From Candidatus Avidehalobacter gallistercoris (GTDB lineage Bacteria > Bacillota > Dehalobacteriia > UBA4068 > UBA4997), in assembly GCA_018715045.1 (NCBI GenBank), contig DVMH01000022.1, positions 74,291-111,470 on the forward strand: a stretch of DNA of 37,180 bases, given 5' to 3'. The notes below the pieces were generated by a model that saw only the letters and a list, made by a program, of their open reading frames with translations, was not told the DNA's origin and did no database searches. The translations under genes and the position numbers were made by a program. Below are positions 3,024-8,689 of the stretch, in pieces (the first letter of the stretch is position 1; each line of letters starts with the position of its first letter).

Positions 3024-4457
3024 TTATCGGTGATCGCATTGTTCTTGTAACCACTTTATTGCCTTATCCTCTCCCTGTTCAATCGCCATTTCAACCGCGT
3101 ACTTGGCGTTTTCCAAGAGCTGTTTGGATTGACGGCGTAGGGAGAAAGATTGCTGAACTTTTTCGGCAATTTCCTGCTGAATGTCCATATCTAAGACGGG
3201 AATCTGTACTGCTTCAATTTCAGACGGTTTCCAATGCTGGATAATCGCTCCGCTTGCATCACGCTCTGCCTGCATTTGCACGATGGGCGAGTTTAAGACA
3301 ATCGTCAGATAATCCGGCAACATCTCTGCCGCATCTTTCACCGTCAAGTGCAGCAAAGCACTGGAGGTCACCGCTTCCATGTTGTCCTCCACTTTATAGG
3401 CAATTCCGACGCTGCCGTCTTTTGAAAACAGAATGGTGTCCTTTTTCGGATACAGATTTTCGATAGAAGGCACGGTAGTTTTGGGTATTCTAATGGAAGG
3501 CGTATTTATTCCGTCTTTGCTCACATCACTTACGCGAACAAAAGGAATGCCCGCATCACCGTAATACTCACTGCCGGGTTCTATGGATTTTGTGATGTTG
3601 ACAATGCTTTTTAAGCGTTTGGTCGGCAAAGCGGAAAGCCGCCGAAACAGCTCATCATATTTTGGCTGGTAATATTCCGCATCCAGACGTCCGGTAGCTC
3701 CAAAGCTGGCAGAAAAGGATTTTTCTGAGTAGCCTTGGGTCTGCACAACAGGCTGGTAGTTCAGGGCAGATAGAAGGAGGATTTCGGAGTTGCAGTATAT
3801 GGAGGTAGCTTCCTGTATGCACCTGTCACTTTCAATTATCAGTTTACTGACCACGCTGCAAAAATCATCAGAAAAAGACGGAATAGGAATGTAGCACACA
3901 TCATCGACATTTAGTTTTGGCTGGGCATTTCCACTTCGTCTTCTCAATATCAGGATATTTCCATAGTTGGAATTCAGGTACGCTAATATAGTGTGTTTTA
4001 GTTTAGTGTCATAGCGTGAAAGTTTAATTCCAATATTGTTTTCACTGATGTTGCATGTTTGTAATTCTACATCAACTCTTGCAAAATACCCGATTGAATT
4101 TCCTACCTTGGATAAAATCACATCATCTCTTTGAAGTTGCGAATTGGCTATTCTTCCGTTATCAAAATTAGATATGTAAACAAGGTTATCCCTGCTTATA
4201 TGAAATCCACCCCTGATGTTCTCGATCCGAACAAAAGGTATGTCACCCTTTTCAAGATAGGCACTGCTTTTTAATGTTGAGCCAAATGGTCCACTAACAA
4301 CACTTTGAGGTGTCAAAAAGAAATGGGGGAGCCCCATTATTTTTTCTTCAACCGTCATGGCAGTTTTACCATAGTACTCCGAATCAAGGCGGTGAGTTTT
4401 ATTTGATTGAAGCATCTCAGAATATAGAAACTCACTACATTCCAGCCCATCCAGCAA
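3024..4457 (-). CDS. hsdS: Type I-style specificity (S) subunit of restriction-modification system
   Basis: The protein of about 477 residues has two target-recognition half-units. The first contains a VSGPFGSTLKS block followed by IPFVRIENI; the second contains IPFVRVSDV. Each ends in a helical spacer, the last being KVQQSFSLRRQSKQLLENAK. This is the duplicated TRD/coiled-coil plan of S subunits, which choose the DNA sequence that the methyltransferase-nuclease acts on. The gene follows hsdM with no room for a separate promoter. No ATG is in frame near the conserved KYKALLDGLE start region. The open frame continues upstream into the end of hsdM, and the first usable initiator is TTG at 4457, which lies inside a nested hairpin. 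Translation probably depends on coupling to hsdM. Confidence 0.9.
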   Translation of the reverse strand: MLDGLECSEFLYSEMLQSNKTHRLDSEYYGKTAMTVEEKIMGLPHFFLTPQSVVSGPFGSTLKSSAYLEKGDIPFVRIENIRGGFHISRDNLVYISNFDNGRIANSQLQRDDVILSKVGNSIGYFARVDVELQTCNISENNIGIKLSRYDTKLKHTILAYLNSNYGNILILRRRSGNAQPKLNVDDVCYIPIPSFSDDFCSVVSKLIIESDRCIQEATSIYCNSEILLLSALNYQPVVQTQGYSEKSFSASFGATGRLDAEYYQPKYDELFRRLSALPTKRLKSIVNITKSIEPGSEYYGDAGIPFVRVSDVSKDGINTPSIRIPKTTVPSIENLYPKKDTILFSKDGSVGIAYKVEDNMEAVTSSALLHLTVKDAAEMLPDYLTIVLNSPIVQMQAERDASGAIIQHWKPSEIEAVQIPVLDMDIQQEIAEKVQQSFSLRRQSKQLLENAKYAVEMAIEQGEDKAIKWLQEQCDHR

Positions 4458-4499
4458 AGCCTTGTATTTGGCTTTATTGAAAGGTTCGGTGGATGGGCT
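4444..4499 (-). promoter_or_regulatory. Nested hairpin at the hsdM-hsdS junction covering the hsdS start
   Basis: AGCCCATCCA (4444-4453) pairs with TGGATGGGCT (4490-4499), and inside it AAAGCC (4456-4461) pairs with GGCTTT (4470-4475). The outer arm touches the hsdM stop codon (4499-4501), and the inner arm contains the TTG start of hsdS (4455-4457). Ribosomes finishing hsdM would open it, so it could enforce translational coupling. The role is inference. Confidence 0.5.
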
Positions 4500-6481
4500 T
4501 ATTGAAAAAAACTCAAACCTTCCTTTTTGGCAAATTCGGCAAAGGCTTCCGCAATGCCGTCCTCGGTTAATCCGTCGTGATTGTAGAGGTCATGGTCAAC
4601 GATCATGTGGCCGTGTTTGTCAAGAATGATATGCCCCTCATCATCCAATCGGACAAGTTTATCTCCGGAATTATTCTTACTGGGCTTCTGCATTGTTGCA
4701 AAGAAGATGGGATAATCCTCTTTCTTGGGGCAGAGCTTATCGTCCCATTTCTGCACAAACAGGACGGAGGTTTTTGTGCCGGTATGGGGCTTAAATACAT
4801 TGCCGTGCAGACCGACGACCGCAAGAATGCGGCAACGTTCGGCAATAAAGTCCCGGATATACTTATCACTGGAATTGTTGAACCGTCCCTGCGGTAGTAC
4901 GATTGCCATGCGACCGCCGGGCTTCAGGAATGACAGATTGCGTTCAATGAACAGAATATCCCTGCCTACTTTGCTCTGATACCTGCCCTTGGCATTCTTG
5001 CCCAACTCATATTTTGAGATAATGCGGCTTTCTTTGATGTCGCCCGCAAAGGGAGGGTTTGCCATTAAAATATCGAAAGTGAAGTCCCTGTTTTCATCTT
5101 TCTTTGCTCGCATTTTTCGCAGACCGCTCCAACCTTCAAAATAGATGTCCTGCCATGCATCATCTTTTGTCACATCGTCCCAGCGCTCATAGTCCAATGT
5201 GTTCAGGTGCATGACATTGGTGCGCCCATCGCCCGCAATCAGATTGAGAGTTCTTGCTACACGGACGGCTTTTTCATCAAAGTCAATGGCAAATACATTC
5301 TTCCGCACATAATCTTCGCACTCCGGCGGTTTCTTTTCTGTAGTAAACAAATGGCTTTGTGGGATACCCTTCTCCGCCAAAATCTGCTTCCAGACATAGA
5401 AAATGGTATGTACGGGAAAGCCGCAGGAACCTGCCGCCGTGTCGATCATCTTCTCATCTTTCTTGGGGTTGAGCATACGCACGCACATATCAATGACATA
5501 ACGAGGCGTAAAATATTGTCCCTTTTCCCCCTTTTGAGATTTGCTCATGAGATATTCAAAAGCGTCGTCCACCACATCCAGATTGGAATTAAACAGTTTT
5601 ACATCCTGTAAGGACGAAACACATACGGCAAGATGCGAGGGAGTTAGCGTAATTACTGCGTCAGAGGAAAACACACCGGGCCATTTCCCCTTTGCTCGCT
5701 CAAAGAGAGCTTGAATGTTCGTTTTCAAGTCCTCGTCAGTGTCGCCATAGTTGCGAAATTCCAGCGTTCTGGAATGGTCTCGGCCACTTTCCATCTCGTC
5801 ATAGAGTTTCGTATAAATCAGCTTGAATACTTCCTCAAACACATCTACTCCGGCGTTGGCAAGAACTTCATCCTCCATTTCCTCGATTAGCCCTTTGAGG
5901 GATTTCTTCTCGCTAACTAACTTATCCTTTGCTACAAGATCATCAATTGTCCAGCGCTCGGTCAGAATGTCCTTTAGTTTCTGGGTCGCAGAAGGAATGT
6001 TGGGAATATCCTCAAAGTAGTTGGGATCTTTTCTTTGATAGAAAGAAATCTGCTGCCCGTTTGTCCAGACACCCATCGTCGCACCCGTGGCGTTGCAGTA
6101 GGATTTAAGCTGTTCCTTTCCCTCGGACAGCTTCGGTTTCTTGACCTCAATGATGATATATTCTACATTGGGGTGGGCTTTTTCAAAGATGACAATATCC
6201 GCTCGTTTTACTTCTCTGCCAAAATGGATATGGCGCTCCAGCTCCATCTGATCAGTGGAATATCCGTAGTTATGTACAAGATTATAGATGTACAACTGAC
6301 GAACAGCTTCTTCAGGTGTTAGCCTGATCGCCTTATGGCGAACCTGGCAGTCTATATAAGGAACCTCTGCTCCCTTAACCGTCTTGCTATAAATCATACC
6401 TTCTATTGCACGAATAGCATCCTCGCTGAAAAGGGAGCTGCTATGATTACTGTCCTGAAATAAAGCGCTCAATGTATACAT
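4499..6481 (-). CDS. hsdM: N6-adenine DNA methyltransferase fused to an HsdR-N-like nuclease domain
   Basis: The 660-residue protein has two parts. Residues about 50-150 match the HSDR_N type of nuclease fold: RADIVIFE (Asp95) and then IIIEVKK (Glu112-Val-Lys114), a PD-(D/E)XK arrangement, followed by GVWTNG. After a linker of about 150 residues, the HsdM-type methyltransferase shows GQYFTPR (about 322), motif I DTAAGSCGF (about 347-355) and motif IV NPPF (475-478), so it should methylate adenine using SAM. The specificity subunit is immediately downstream, and no helicase-type hsdR gene is seen in the window. The pair could work like BcgI-type enzymes, where one polypeptide cuts and methylates and a partner chooses the site. 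Alternatively, hsdR may be elsewhere. An AGGAGG site precedes ATG 6481, and the leader is long and foldable. Confidence 0.9.
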   Translation of the reverse strand: MYTLSALFQDSNHSSSLFSEDAIRAIEGMIYSKTVKGAEVPYIDCQVRHKAIRLTPEEAVRQLYIYNLVHNYGYSTDQMELERHIHFGREVKRADIVIFEKAHPNVEYIIIEVKKPKLSEGKEQLKSYCNATGATMGVWTNGQQISFYQRKDPNYFEDIPNIPSATQKLKDILTERWTIDDLVAKDKLVSEKKSLKGLIEEMEDEVLANAGVDVFEEVFKLIYTKLYDEMESGRDHSRTLEFRNYGDTDEDLKTNIQALFERAKGKWPGVFSSDAVITLTPSHLAVCVSSLQDVKLFNSNLDVVDDAFEYLMSKSQKGEKGQYFTPRYVIDMCVRMLNPKKDEKMIDTAAGSCGFPVHTIFYVWKQILAEKGIPQSHLFTTEKKPPECEDYVRKNVFAIDFDEKAVRVARTLNLIAGDGRTNVMHLNTLDYERWDDVTKDDAWQDIYFEGWSGLRKMRAKKDENRDFTFDILMANPPFAGDIKESRIISKYELGKNAKGRYQSKVGRDILFIERNLSFLKPGGRMAIVLPQGRFNNSSDKYIRDFIAERCRILAVVGLHGNVFKPHTGTKTSVLFVQKWDDKLCPKKEDYPIFFATMQKPSKNNSGDKLVRLDDEGHIILDKHGHMIVDHDLYNHDGLTEDGIAEAFAEFAKKEGLSFFQ

Positions 6482-6686: not shown

Positions 6687-6952
6687 GACGACAAAAAATT
6701 CTCCCCAATCGTTGACAATCATTTGTTCCGCTGCTAAAGTATAGATGTCCGTGAGAAAATCTCCGGTGAGAATAAGGCTTGGCATCGTGCCACGAGATCA
6801 TTTTCGTAAAGCCGAAAGTGCTATTCTCAAGTGCCGTTCTGCTTTTAGCTGAGAGAAAATTTTGAACGGTAAACTGAATACTGCAAAACGATTGCAGAAT
6901 CAAAAAGCAAGCTTAGTGCCTTGGAGCCGCTTGATGCGTTGACTTCCTACGA

Positions 6953-7029
6953 GCCACCTGACTTTGACATACTCTCACGGGAGTAGTCTGTCTAAGTGGC
7001 GGCGTATTTCAACGGTCAAGTGGCTTTTT
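6953..7029 (+). terminator. Terminator-like hairpin with two alternative right arms
   Basis: GCCAC, TGAC and TTGA (6953-6967) pair in order with TCAA, GTCA and GTGGC (7009-7024), with small internal bulges, and TTTTT follows at 7025-7029. A small inner hairpin, ACTC/GAGT, lies at 6971-6984. The sequence AAGTGGC occurs twice (6994-7000 and 7018-7024), so the left arm could pair with either copy, which is an attenuator-like arrangement. Confidence 0.5.
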
Positions 7030-7038
7030 GTATTTCAT

Positions 7039-7078
7039 GCTCATCGACTCCGAGAAAGGAGAACCGATGAGCTTTTTT
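7039..7078 (+). terminator. Intrinsic terminator inside the element
   Basis: GCTCATCG (7039-7046) pairs with CGATGAGC (7065-7072), with CTCC/GGAG inside, and TTTTTT follows at 7073-7078. It is a convincing rho-independent terminator on the plus strand, only 10 bases after the previous terminator-like hairpin. It would stop transcription about 360 bases before the next ORF. Confidence 0.75.
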
Positions 7079-7434
7079 GTTGGCCTCCGGCAGTAGCTAG
7101 CTATCCGTGAGCGTTTCATCGCGCGCATGACAACTGAATGACTGGCTGAGTGAGATATGACCTTGCGAGGATATGAGCGAGACAACATCGGAGTGAAAGT
7201 CTCGGATAGGCATACAAAAACGACATTCAGGCAAAACGGCAACCCAAGTCAAAGGAGGAATTTACTACCCGAAAGGAAGATGTATCAAGTAAGACCTGTA
7301 CCGTCTTAGCAGGCCAAACCTTTTTACTCCTGTCGGTGTAAAAACGGTAATTCTGCCTGCCCGATGTCTGCGTCATCTGAGCGAGCAGTGCGGTTTTACT
7401 CTTATCGTTCCAAAACCACGCAATCTAAGGGGCG

Positions 7435-7671
7435 TTGCCTCTTAAACCCCAATTTCAGAAAGGATTGATTTTTACGAAAAGAACCATCAAAAAGCAGTTT
7501 TGGGTATCCCCCCAAGAGGACACCCAACTGAAACAAAAAGCTCATAAAACAGGACTGAACGAAGCCACACTTCTGTGTATGCTCATCAGAGATTTAAATC
7601 ATTTCATCACAGCGGTAGAGGAAGAGTTCCTCGCACCGGAGAAAGTCGGAGGTGAAAATGATAGAAACTAA
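7435..7671 (+). CDS. Small mobilisation-type (MobC N-terminus-like) protein, probably decaying
   Basis: The small basic protein contains KRTIKKQFWVSPQEDTQLKQ, then KAHKTGLNEATLLCMLIRDL, a pattern like the ribbon-helix-helix N-terminus of MobC-type accessory proteins carried just before ParB-like genes in clostridial conjugative elements. The open frame can start at TTG 7435, but that codon has a ribosome site only 2 bases away. A well-spaced AAAGGA (7459-7464) points to position 7474, where the sequence is ACG and relatives would be expected to have ATG. The start codon may therefore have been lost. The 3' end overlaps the next gene by 14 bases. The role, DNA binding in the relaxosome or in regulation, is inferred from the family. 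Confidence 0.45.
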   Translation: MPLKPQFQKGLIFTKRTIKKQFWVSPQEDTQLKQKAHKTGLNEATLLCMLIRDLNHFITAVEEEFLAPEKVGGENDRN

Positions 7672-8210
7672 ACTCAAAATCAGCGAGCTACACCCATTCC
7701 ATGACCATCCGTACATGGTGCGTGATGATGAAGAAATGACTGCTTTTGTGGAGAGCGTTAGGGAAAATGGTATTCTCTCGCCCCGCATCGTCTTGCCAGA
7801 TGAGAGCGGCGGCTATGAGGTCATCAGCGGACACCGAAAGCTGTATGCTGCATTAAAAGGCGGGGCTTGCGGAAGTTCCGGCGCTCATCTATCCTCTCAA
7901 CCGTGAGGAATCTGCCATTGCCGTGGTGGACAGCAATCTGCACCGTGAGCATATCCTGCCCAGCGAGAAAGCCTTTACTTACAAGCTCAAAATGGAGGCG
8001 CTGAGCAAGCAGGGCAAGCGCACGGACTTTAACTTCATCGCAAGTTGCGGCAAAGTCGGACACCGCTAATGAGATTGGAGAGCAGACAGGCGAAAGCCGA
8101 GACCAAATCTACCGCTATATCCGTCTGACAAGCCTCATATATGAACTTTTGGAGCTGGTGGACGAGGAACGCATTGCTATGACCCCTGCAGTGGAACTGA
8201 GTTATTTCCG
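7658..8210 (+). pseudogene. ParB/Spo0J-family DNA-binding protein, two frameshifts and truncated
   Basis: From ATG 7658 (GGAGG 5 bases upstream) the frame gives KISELHPFHDHPYMV and GYEVISGHRKLYAALK, the ParB N-terminal nuclease/CTPase-like fold. One extra A in the run at about 7854-7857 breaks the frame. The next segment, GLAEVPALIYPLNREES then VVDSNLHREHILPSEKAF, continues in a second frame. One extra T near 8026-8028 shifts it again to NEIGEQTGES and YIRLTSLIYELLELVDEERI. The third part ends at AVELSYF (about 8207), where the reading passes straight into recombinase sequence, so the C-terminus has been deleted. Such genes regulate or partition mobile elements. Both shifts are single-base gains in short homopolymers, so a read check is worthwhile, but the deletion is a real rearrangement. 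Confidence 0.7.
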
Positions 8211-8212
8211 GG

Positions 8213-8675
8213 TTGATATTTTGTCCCGACTGCGGGGCGAAGCTTCATTTTTGTGCATCTAAGAGTCTGAAACGCAATCAAGAGTTCTGGAGATGTTCCA
8301 ACTATAAAGACGGCAGAGGAAGCTGCAAAATCCACTATATTCGAGATGTGGTGTTAGAGCAGAACGTGCTGGAAGCTATCGGCAATTTTGCCGACTTCGT
8401 CCGCTGCTATGAGCCTGTATTTCTCTATCTGCTGGCGAGGAAGAACAGCGCCTTGCAGAAAGCTGAAATGAGGACTATTCGCAAAACGGTTGAGTCTGGT
8501 GAACACGCTCATTCAGCGCATTGAAGTCCACAGCAACGAAAAGAAGCACAAGCACAACCGTGTGAAGGCAGACATCTATTTTACTGCTATAGGGATGAAA
8601 GATATTCCCGCCGAGCAGGAAATCATGGCTATGATGAAGGAGATGGAGAAAATCCCAAAGCGTTCCGCTTCGTAG
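8213..8675 (+). pseudogene. Large serine recombinase, C-terminal remnant with internal deletion
   Basis: The remnant opens with LIFCPDCGAKLHFCASKS and RNQEFWRCSNYKDGRGSC, the recombinase zinc-beta-ribbon (Cys pairs visible), then IRDVVLEQNVLEAIGNFADFV. At about 8490 the sequence jumps out of frame from the start of the coiled coil to VNTLIQRIEVH and ADIYFTAIGM, the DUF4368-like tail, ending at 8675. The N-terminal catalytic serine domain and about the whole coiled-coil middle are missing, so it cannot recombine DNA. Its 5' end is fused to the ParB remnant at 8207-8213. Together with tnpV it identifies the island as derived from a serine-recombinase element. The first base of the TTG at 8213 is not a real start. 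Confidence 0.75.
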
Positions 8676-8689
8676 CCTGACAGGCAAAA

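Follow-up and report, generated by a model that had tools for sequence, protein, structure and literature searches.

We describe here a conserved RNA of about 118 bases at positions 7123-7240 of a 37,180-nucleotide stretch of DNA from Candidatus Avidehalobacter gallistercoris (hereafter, the window). It is a new RNA family, with none like it in Rfam 15, and by its sequence it appears to be a relative of the canT antiterminator RNA of Tn916. The non-coding block to which it belongs is probably the left-hand control region of a mobilisable element, now decayed, of the large-serine-recombinase type, and would carry a canT-type antitermination leader in decayed form; the antitermination itself is inferred from the relatives. 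The observed basis of this reading consists of a conserved and covarying RNA, its position and orientation, a boxA of the rRNA type and an order of motifs in common with canT.

A block of two parts within an element remnant

The initial annotation had marked 6767-7209 as one structured non-coding block. The structure is real (z -3.9 for the folding energy of the whole block against shuffles), but it comprises two units, namely a terminated leader unit (6712-7078) and then the conserved RNA, which reaches 7240 and had mostly been missed. Both lie in a remnant with the order TnpV, type I specificity and methylase subunits, block, oriT-like region, short MobC, frameshifted ParB and recombinase tail. 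The features are as follows.

ends at 2295: biotin-synthase-like gene flanking the remnant (named from sequence by eye)
6712-6740, + strand: probable sigma-A promoter, weak (TTGACA, 17-base spacer, TAAAGT; 10 of 12 consensus bases)
6717-6728: LexA-type palindrome AATCATTTGTTC, overlapping the leader promoter, two of its eight defining bases changed
6767-6829, + strand: multi-branch stem between promoter and hairpin (-20.6 kcal/mol, z -3.5)
6834-6869, + strand: hairpin just 5' of the AACTGAAT motif (z -1.1 alone, no better than shuffles)
6871-6879, + strand: AAACTGAAT motif of the upstream unit, boxA-extension-like
6923-7029, + strand: long terminator hairpin with TTTTT (-49.2 kcal/mol, z -5.6)
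7039-7078, + strand: second, tandem terminator with TTTTTT (-19.5 kcal/mol, z -5.3), about 10 bases past the first
7123-7240, + strand: conserved RNA with boxA and three-way junction, a candidate canT-type antiterminator
7124-7141, + strand: boxA region CGCATGACAACTGAATGA, its CCTTG part degenerate in the window
7142-7145 with 7236-7239 and 7146-7151 with 7225-7230, + strand: closing helix P1 (covariation)
7161-7166 with 7177-7182, + strand: P2 (covariation)
7187-7189 with 7205-7207, + strand: P3 (covariation)
7238-7439, + strand: oriT-like region of nested inverted repeats, beginning about where the conserved RNA ends
7474-7671, + strand: shortened MobC/NikA-like gene (Pfam NikA-like E 2.1e-5, just under the cut-off)
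7652-8190, + strand: ParB remnant, frameshifted (ParB_N E 6e-9; about 51% identity to the ParB of locus L094)
8213-8687, + strand: C-terminal remnant of a large serine recombinase, frameshifted (Zn_ribbon_recom E 1e-12; 59-61% to L094 and L117)
from 8775: transporter-like gene flanking the remnant (named from sequence by eye)

The oriT-like region has an outer repeat, GGCAACCC (7238) and GGGGCGTTGCC (7429), and an inner one, TTTTTACTCC and GGTGTAAAAA (7321-7344). Its layout matches that of the region 5' of mobC in locus L010, whose MobC is about 50 amino acids longer than the window's MobC/NikA-like product. Being in a broken element, the window copy of leader and RNA may be nonfunctional now. 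Within the same remnant, 3024-6481 encodes a type I methylase with an HsdR_N-like N-terminal domain and a specificity subunit; no restriction subunit was seen beside these genes.

The leader unit contains, in order, a promoter, hairpins, the AAACTGAAT motif and two tandem terminators. The multi-branch stem and both terminators had been noticed before and stand up to folding against shuffles, although no counterpart of the former was found in the upstream units of relatives. The stem at 6834-6869, also proposed earlier, does not exceed shuffles, yet relatives and rRNA leaders also have a hairpin followed by the motif at this position. In relatives, the upstream unit runs from a promoter through a 5' hairpin, the AACTGAATA motif and an H-type pseudoknot (p <=0.01 in nine of ten) to a long terminator. 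The window keeps this order, without the pseudoknot (p 0.80) and with two changes in its LexA site. The relatives' promoter is a strong TTGACA-TATAAT with GAAC-N4-GTTC in the spacer, perfect in 7 of 19 and with one change in 8 of 19. The terminator at 6923-7029 is the counterpart of their AGCCG..CGGCTTTTTT hairpins, and two tandem terminators are also present in L024.

The upstream unit is itself a second conserved RNA of about 170-300 nucleotides, without an Rfam entry, which lies upstream of the boxA RNA in L017, L019, L023, L029, L038, L089 and L092 and further in L020, L030, L034, L088, L091, L094 and L123. Most copies have a LexA-type promoter, the pseudoknot stems are changed yet complementary, and the AGCCG-TACATA terminator is conserved. 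Two candidates around the leader unit were discarded: 6891-6917 has a 93% match that falls in mutS2 coding sequence and reflects chance, and the window does not allow the AACGGC end of the RNA to pair with the left arm of the upstream terminator.

The conserved RNA and its relatives

The folding energy of 7123-7240 does not stand out (z -0.09), and the RNA can be detected only through its relatives. A blastn search of plasmids, phages, E. coli and the host's class found no relatives of the block, scans of viral contigs returned at most chance matches, and the block is absent from the ParB-neighbour records. A sample of 398 genomes yielded a single 70% match, to 7128-7240, and a pattern built on it led to some 20 Clostridia loci with a common 115-base element (the matches L021, L022 and L032 lie inside coding regions and are due to chance). 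A search with a covariance model detected the RNA in about one in eight sampled genomes of one Clostridia order (37 of 295) and, within the genus to which the window belongs, in five genomes, among them that of the window. The 62 loci considered below include some near-identical copies, so counts refer to loci and not to events.

The window's copy scores 96.6 bits (E 6.6e-23) with model R1, whose training set includes it. The held-out model R3, built only from 17 distant variants with a long P2, gives 45.8 bits (E 9.5e-11), its only match in 37 kb. A structure-blind MAFFT alignment of about 20 loci places 95% of cells in pairs of a three-way junction, with a covariation score of 0.32, whereas slid versions reach 0.12 at most. 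Among 63 distinct sequences, 94.4% of cells are paired, two-sided changes occur in 16 of 19 pairs, and the score is 0.455 against at most 0.10 for all slid controls, in an alignment that was fitted to the model and hence leans towards its structure. The excess of G-U over A-C cells (106 vs 32) points to the + strand as the RNA strand. The suspicion of a structured RNA is thus borne out by covarying relatives. The covariation lies in the three-way junction of 7123-7240, not in the stems that had been proposed, and it backs a pairing of 7205-7207 with 7187-7189; the suggested long-range pair of CTATCCG (7101) with CGGATAG (7203) is not supported. Neither the window nor 11 relatives have an Rfam 15 match at gathering score (only tRNA elsewhere). 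No earlier description was found in the openly readable literature.

Homologues upstream of mobC/parB-like genes, whose absence the initial annotation would have counted against its reading, do exist, and the idea of a leader for mobilisation genes agrees with relatives that precede MobC, relaxase, ParB and recombinase genes. The intact relative L094 has the order upstream unit, terminator, RNA, MobC, relaxase, ParB, recombinase. All downstream mobile-element genes are co-directional with the RNA: serine recombinases (31/31), relaxases (21/21), ParB (13/13), AAA (12/12) and integrases (10/10). Serine recombinases follow the RNA in 29 loci; relaxases, ParB, AAA/Rep-like genes and tyrosine integrases, including Tn916-type ones, do so too. 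As recombinase types differ among loci, the leader is portable. In L025, L031, L101 and L108 a promoter lies directly before the RNA, which is therefore a 5' leader there.

Two observations concern the host genomes and the DNA further upstream. Three to seven copies per genome occur in G473, G666 and G610, which suggests several related elements per host. Upstream of the RNA in L058, L059, L061, L067, L068 and L073, GTGGAAAT and GGATATACGGGA motifs precede a TANAAT-like box and are perhaps an operator common to those elements.

At the 5' end of the relatives' RNA stands CCTTGAMAAYTGAATG. Close behind the promoter, and often after a hairpin, ACCTTGAAAATTAAACAA or a near variant of it is found in the rRNA leaders of these hosts or of related ones; rRNA boxA chiefly recruits NusB-S10 (PMC10250234). 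In 46 of 62 loci, a boxA matrix trained on rRNA leaders only places the start of the RNA at the top of about 1000 positions; the degenerate window copy ranks third. Across loci, the RNA thus opens with a boxA resembling the one in the hosts' rRNA leaders. With rRNA operon leaders the family has in common the CCTTGAAAATTNAA motif and, in the upstream unit, the succession of hairpin and motif soon after the promoter. It differs in having a three-way junction and mobile-element genes, rather than rRNA, after boxA.

Likeness to canT and competing readings

The canT of Tn916 is a cis-acting, processive and orientation-specific antiterminator, most likely an RNA, that reads through several intrinsic terminators; its active part is unmapped, and its authors could not tie structure to activity (PMC11658703). 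In the Tn916-type element of pCF10, canT begins with the boxA-like TTCTTTGAAAACTGAATA, followed by GCCATGAC..GAGCG and then by ..CAACGACATTC. Its proposed closing helix (CGATAAGAA with TTCTTATCG) and its P2 and P3 stems are exact complements, as a three-way junction would need. A four-motif chain learned from the new family ranks pCF10 canT first of 185,280 positions (52.4 vs 28.1), and it is also first by boxA alone and by the P2/P3 motifs alone. The best R2 match starts at boxA in four more canT-like loci, one of them a TndX element. The covariance models R2 and R3 give E 0.17 and 0.31 over 42 kb; the two halves are matched in order at E 0.0044 and 0.026 within 611 bases. The models alone are not significant, and the link to canT is carried by the ordered motifs. 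Like the new RNA, canT sits before recombination genes (xis/int, or the serine recombinase gene tndX in L168). As differences, its boxA and P1 are some 24 bases further apart, its P2 is longer and a pemK RNA lies downstream. The 452-nucleotide canT region contains this Rfam RNA (RF02913, 55 bits; L165:16823-16923, - strand, in a Tn916-type element), which may take part in antitermination.

Other antiterminators are more remote. The conAn of plasmid pLS20 (PMC8955417) is likewise an RNA antiterminator heading a Gram-positive conjugation operon, which differs in requiring the protein ConAn1; conAn2 of pLS20 matched neither the models nor the motifs of the conserved RNA. The put RNA of HK022 and EAR of Bacillus eps are listed there as RNA-only processive antiterminators. 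The new family would fall in this class and is set apart from them by the absent Rfam match for its loci.

It is improbable that 7123-7240 serves as a boxA-dependent anti-Rho or RNA-folding leader, which would protect untranslated RNA, as in rRNA operons, without overcoming intrinsic terminators. The match of boxA to the hosts' rRNA leaders, with its recruitment of NusB-S10, would suit such a role; however, canT, which has these motifs as well, passes several intrinsic terminators, and the three-way junction is additional to what rRNA leaders have. An attenuator or riboswitch, in which the upstream unit toggles between terminator and antiterminator on a signal, seems quite improbable. Strong terminators directly 5' of the operon and a structured upstream RNA, with a pseudoknot in relatives, could be read that way, but the window lacks the pseudoknot and no competing antiterminator helix was found. 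AAGTGGC does occur twice, exactly at 6994 and 7018, as first noted; one helix encloses the other and both form at once, so the proposed switch between partners, and with it attenuation by mutually exclusive helices, is not supported.

That the upstream unit acts in trans as a free-standing, SOS-induced small RNA, with 7123-7240 independent of it, is a rather unlikely reading, though compatible with the favored one. In relatives the unit has its own LexA-type promoter and its own terminator, in the L029 genome the LexA-type palindrome CGAACGCATGTTCG lies 167 bases upstream of the host's lexA, and the downstream RNA is also found without the unit (L036, L040, L027). On the other hand, no target is known, and in many loci the unit lies immediately 5' of the operon leader. 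Lastly, the block can hardly be part of the transfer origin, as had been considered at the outset, folding as single-stranded DNA. It adjoins the oriT-like region and mobC, yet the RNA is present where integrase or AAA genes come next instead, G-U pairs exceed A-C three to one, and the oriT-like repeats lie outside the RNA, in a separate neighbor that starts where the RNA ends.

Proposed mechanism and significance

For the canT-type antitermination leader, we propose the following course. The leader unit, with its promoter, its hairpin, the AACTGAAT motif and both terminators in tandem, would precede an RNA that heads a mobC-(relaxase)-parB-recombinase operon. The terminators may stop spurious or outside transcription and so serve as insulators, as proposed for Tn916. 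In L019-type units the RNA cannot act on the unit's own terminator in a first pass, as that terminator lies upstream of it. Once transcribed, the nascent boxA/three-way-junction RNA would bind the elongating polymerase, with boxA presumably acting through the host's NusB-S10 rRNA antitermination factors and the three-way junction perhaps contacting the polymerase directly. The polymerase would then pass terminators in the transfer operon, like canT in Tn916.

A broader proposition, which we put forward tentatively and at somewhat less than even chances, is that mobilisable and conjugative elements of Clostridia and Tn916 have one ancient RNA in common, in which boxA with NusB-S10 and a three-way junction make the polymerase terminator-proof, and which in many elements is gated by a separate, SOS (LexA)-controlled, pseudoknotted and self-terminating RNA. 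The covariation-based structure with its boxA, together with dozens of natural variants, provides exact bases for testing. If true, transfer operons throughout gut Clostridia would be driven by a single RNA device that uses host rRNA antitermination factors, and mobile elements, even broken ones, could be recognized by its presence from about 115 non-coding bases.
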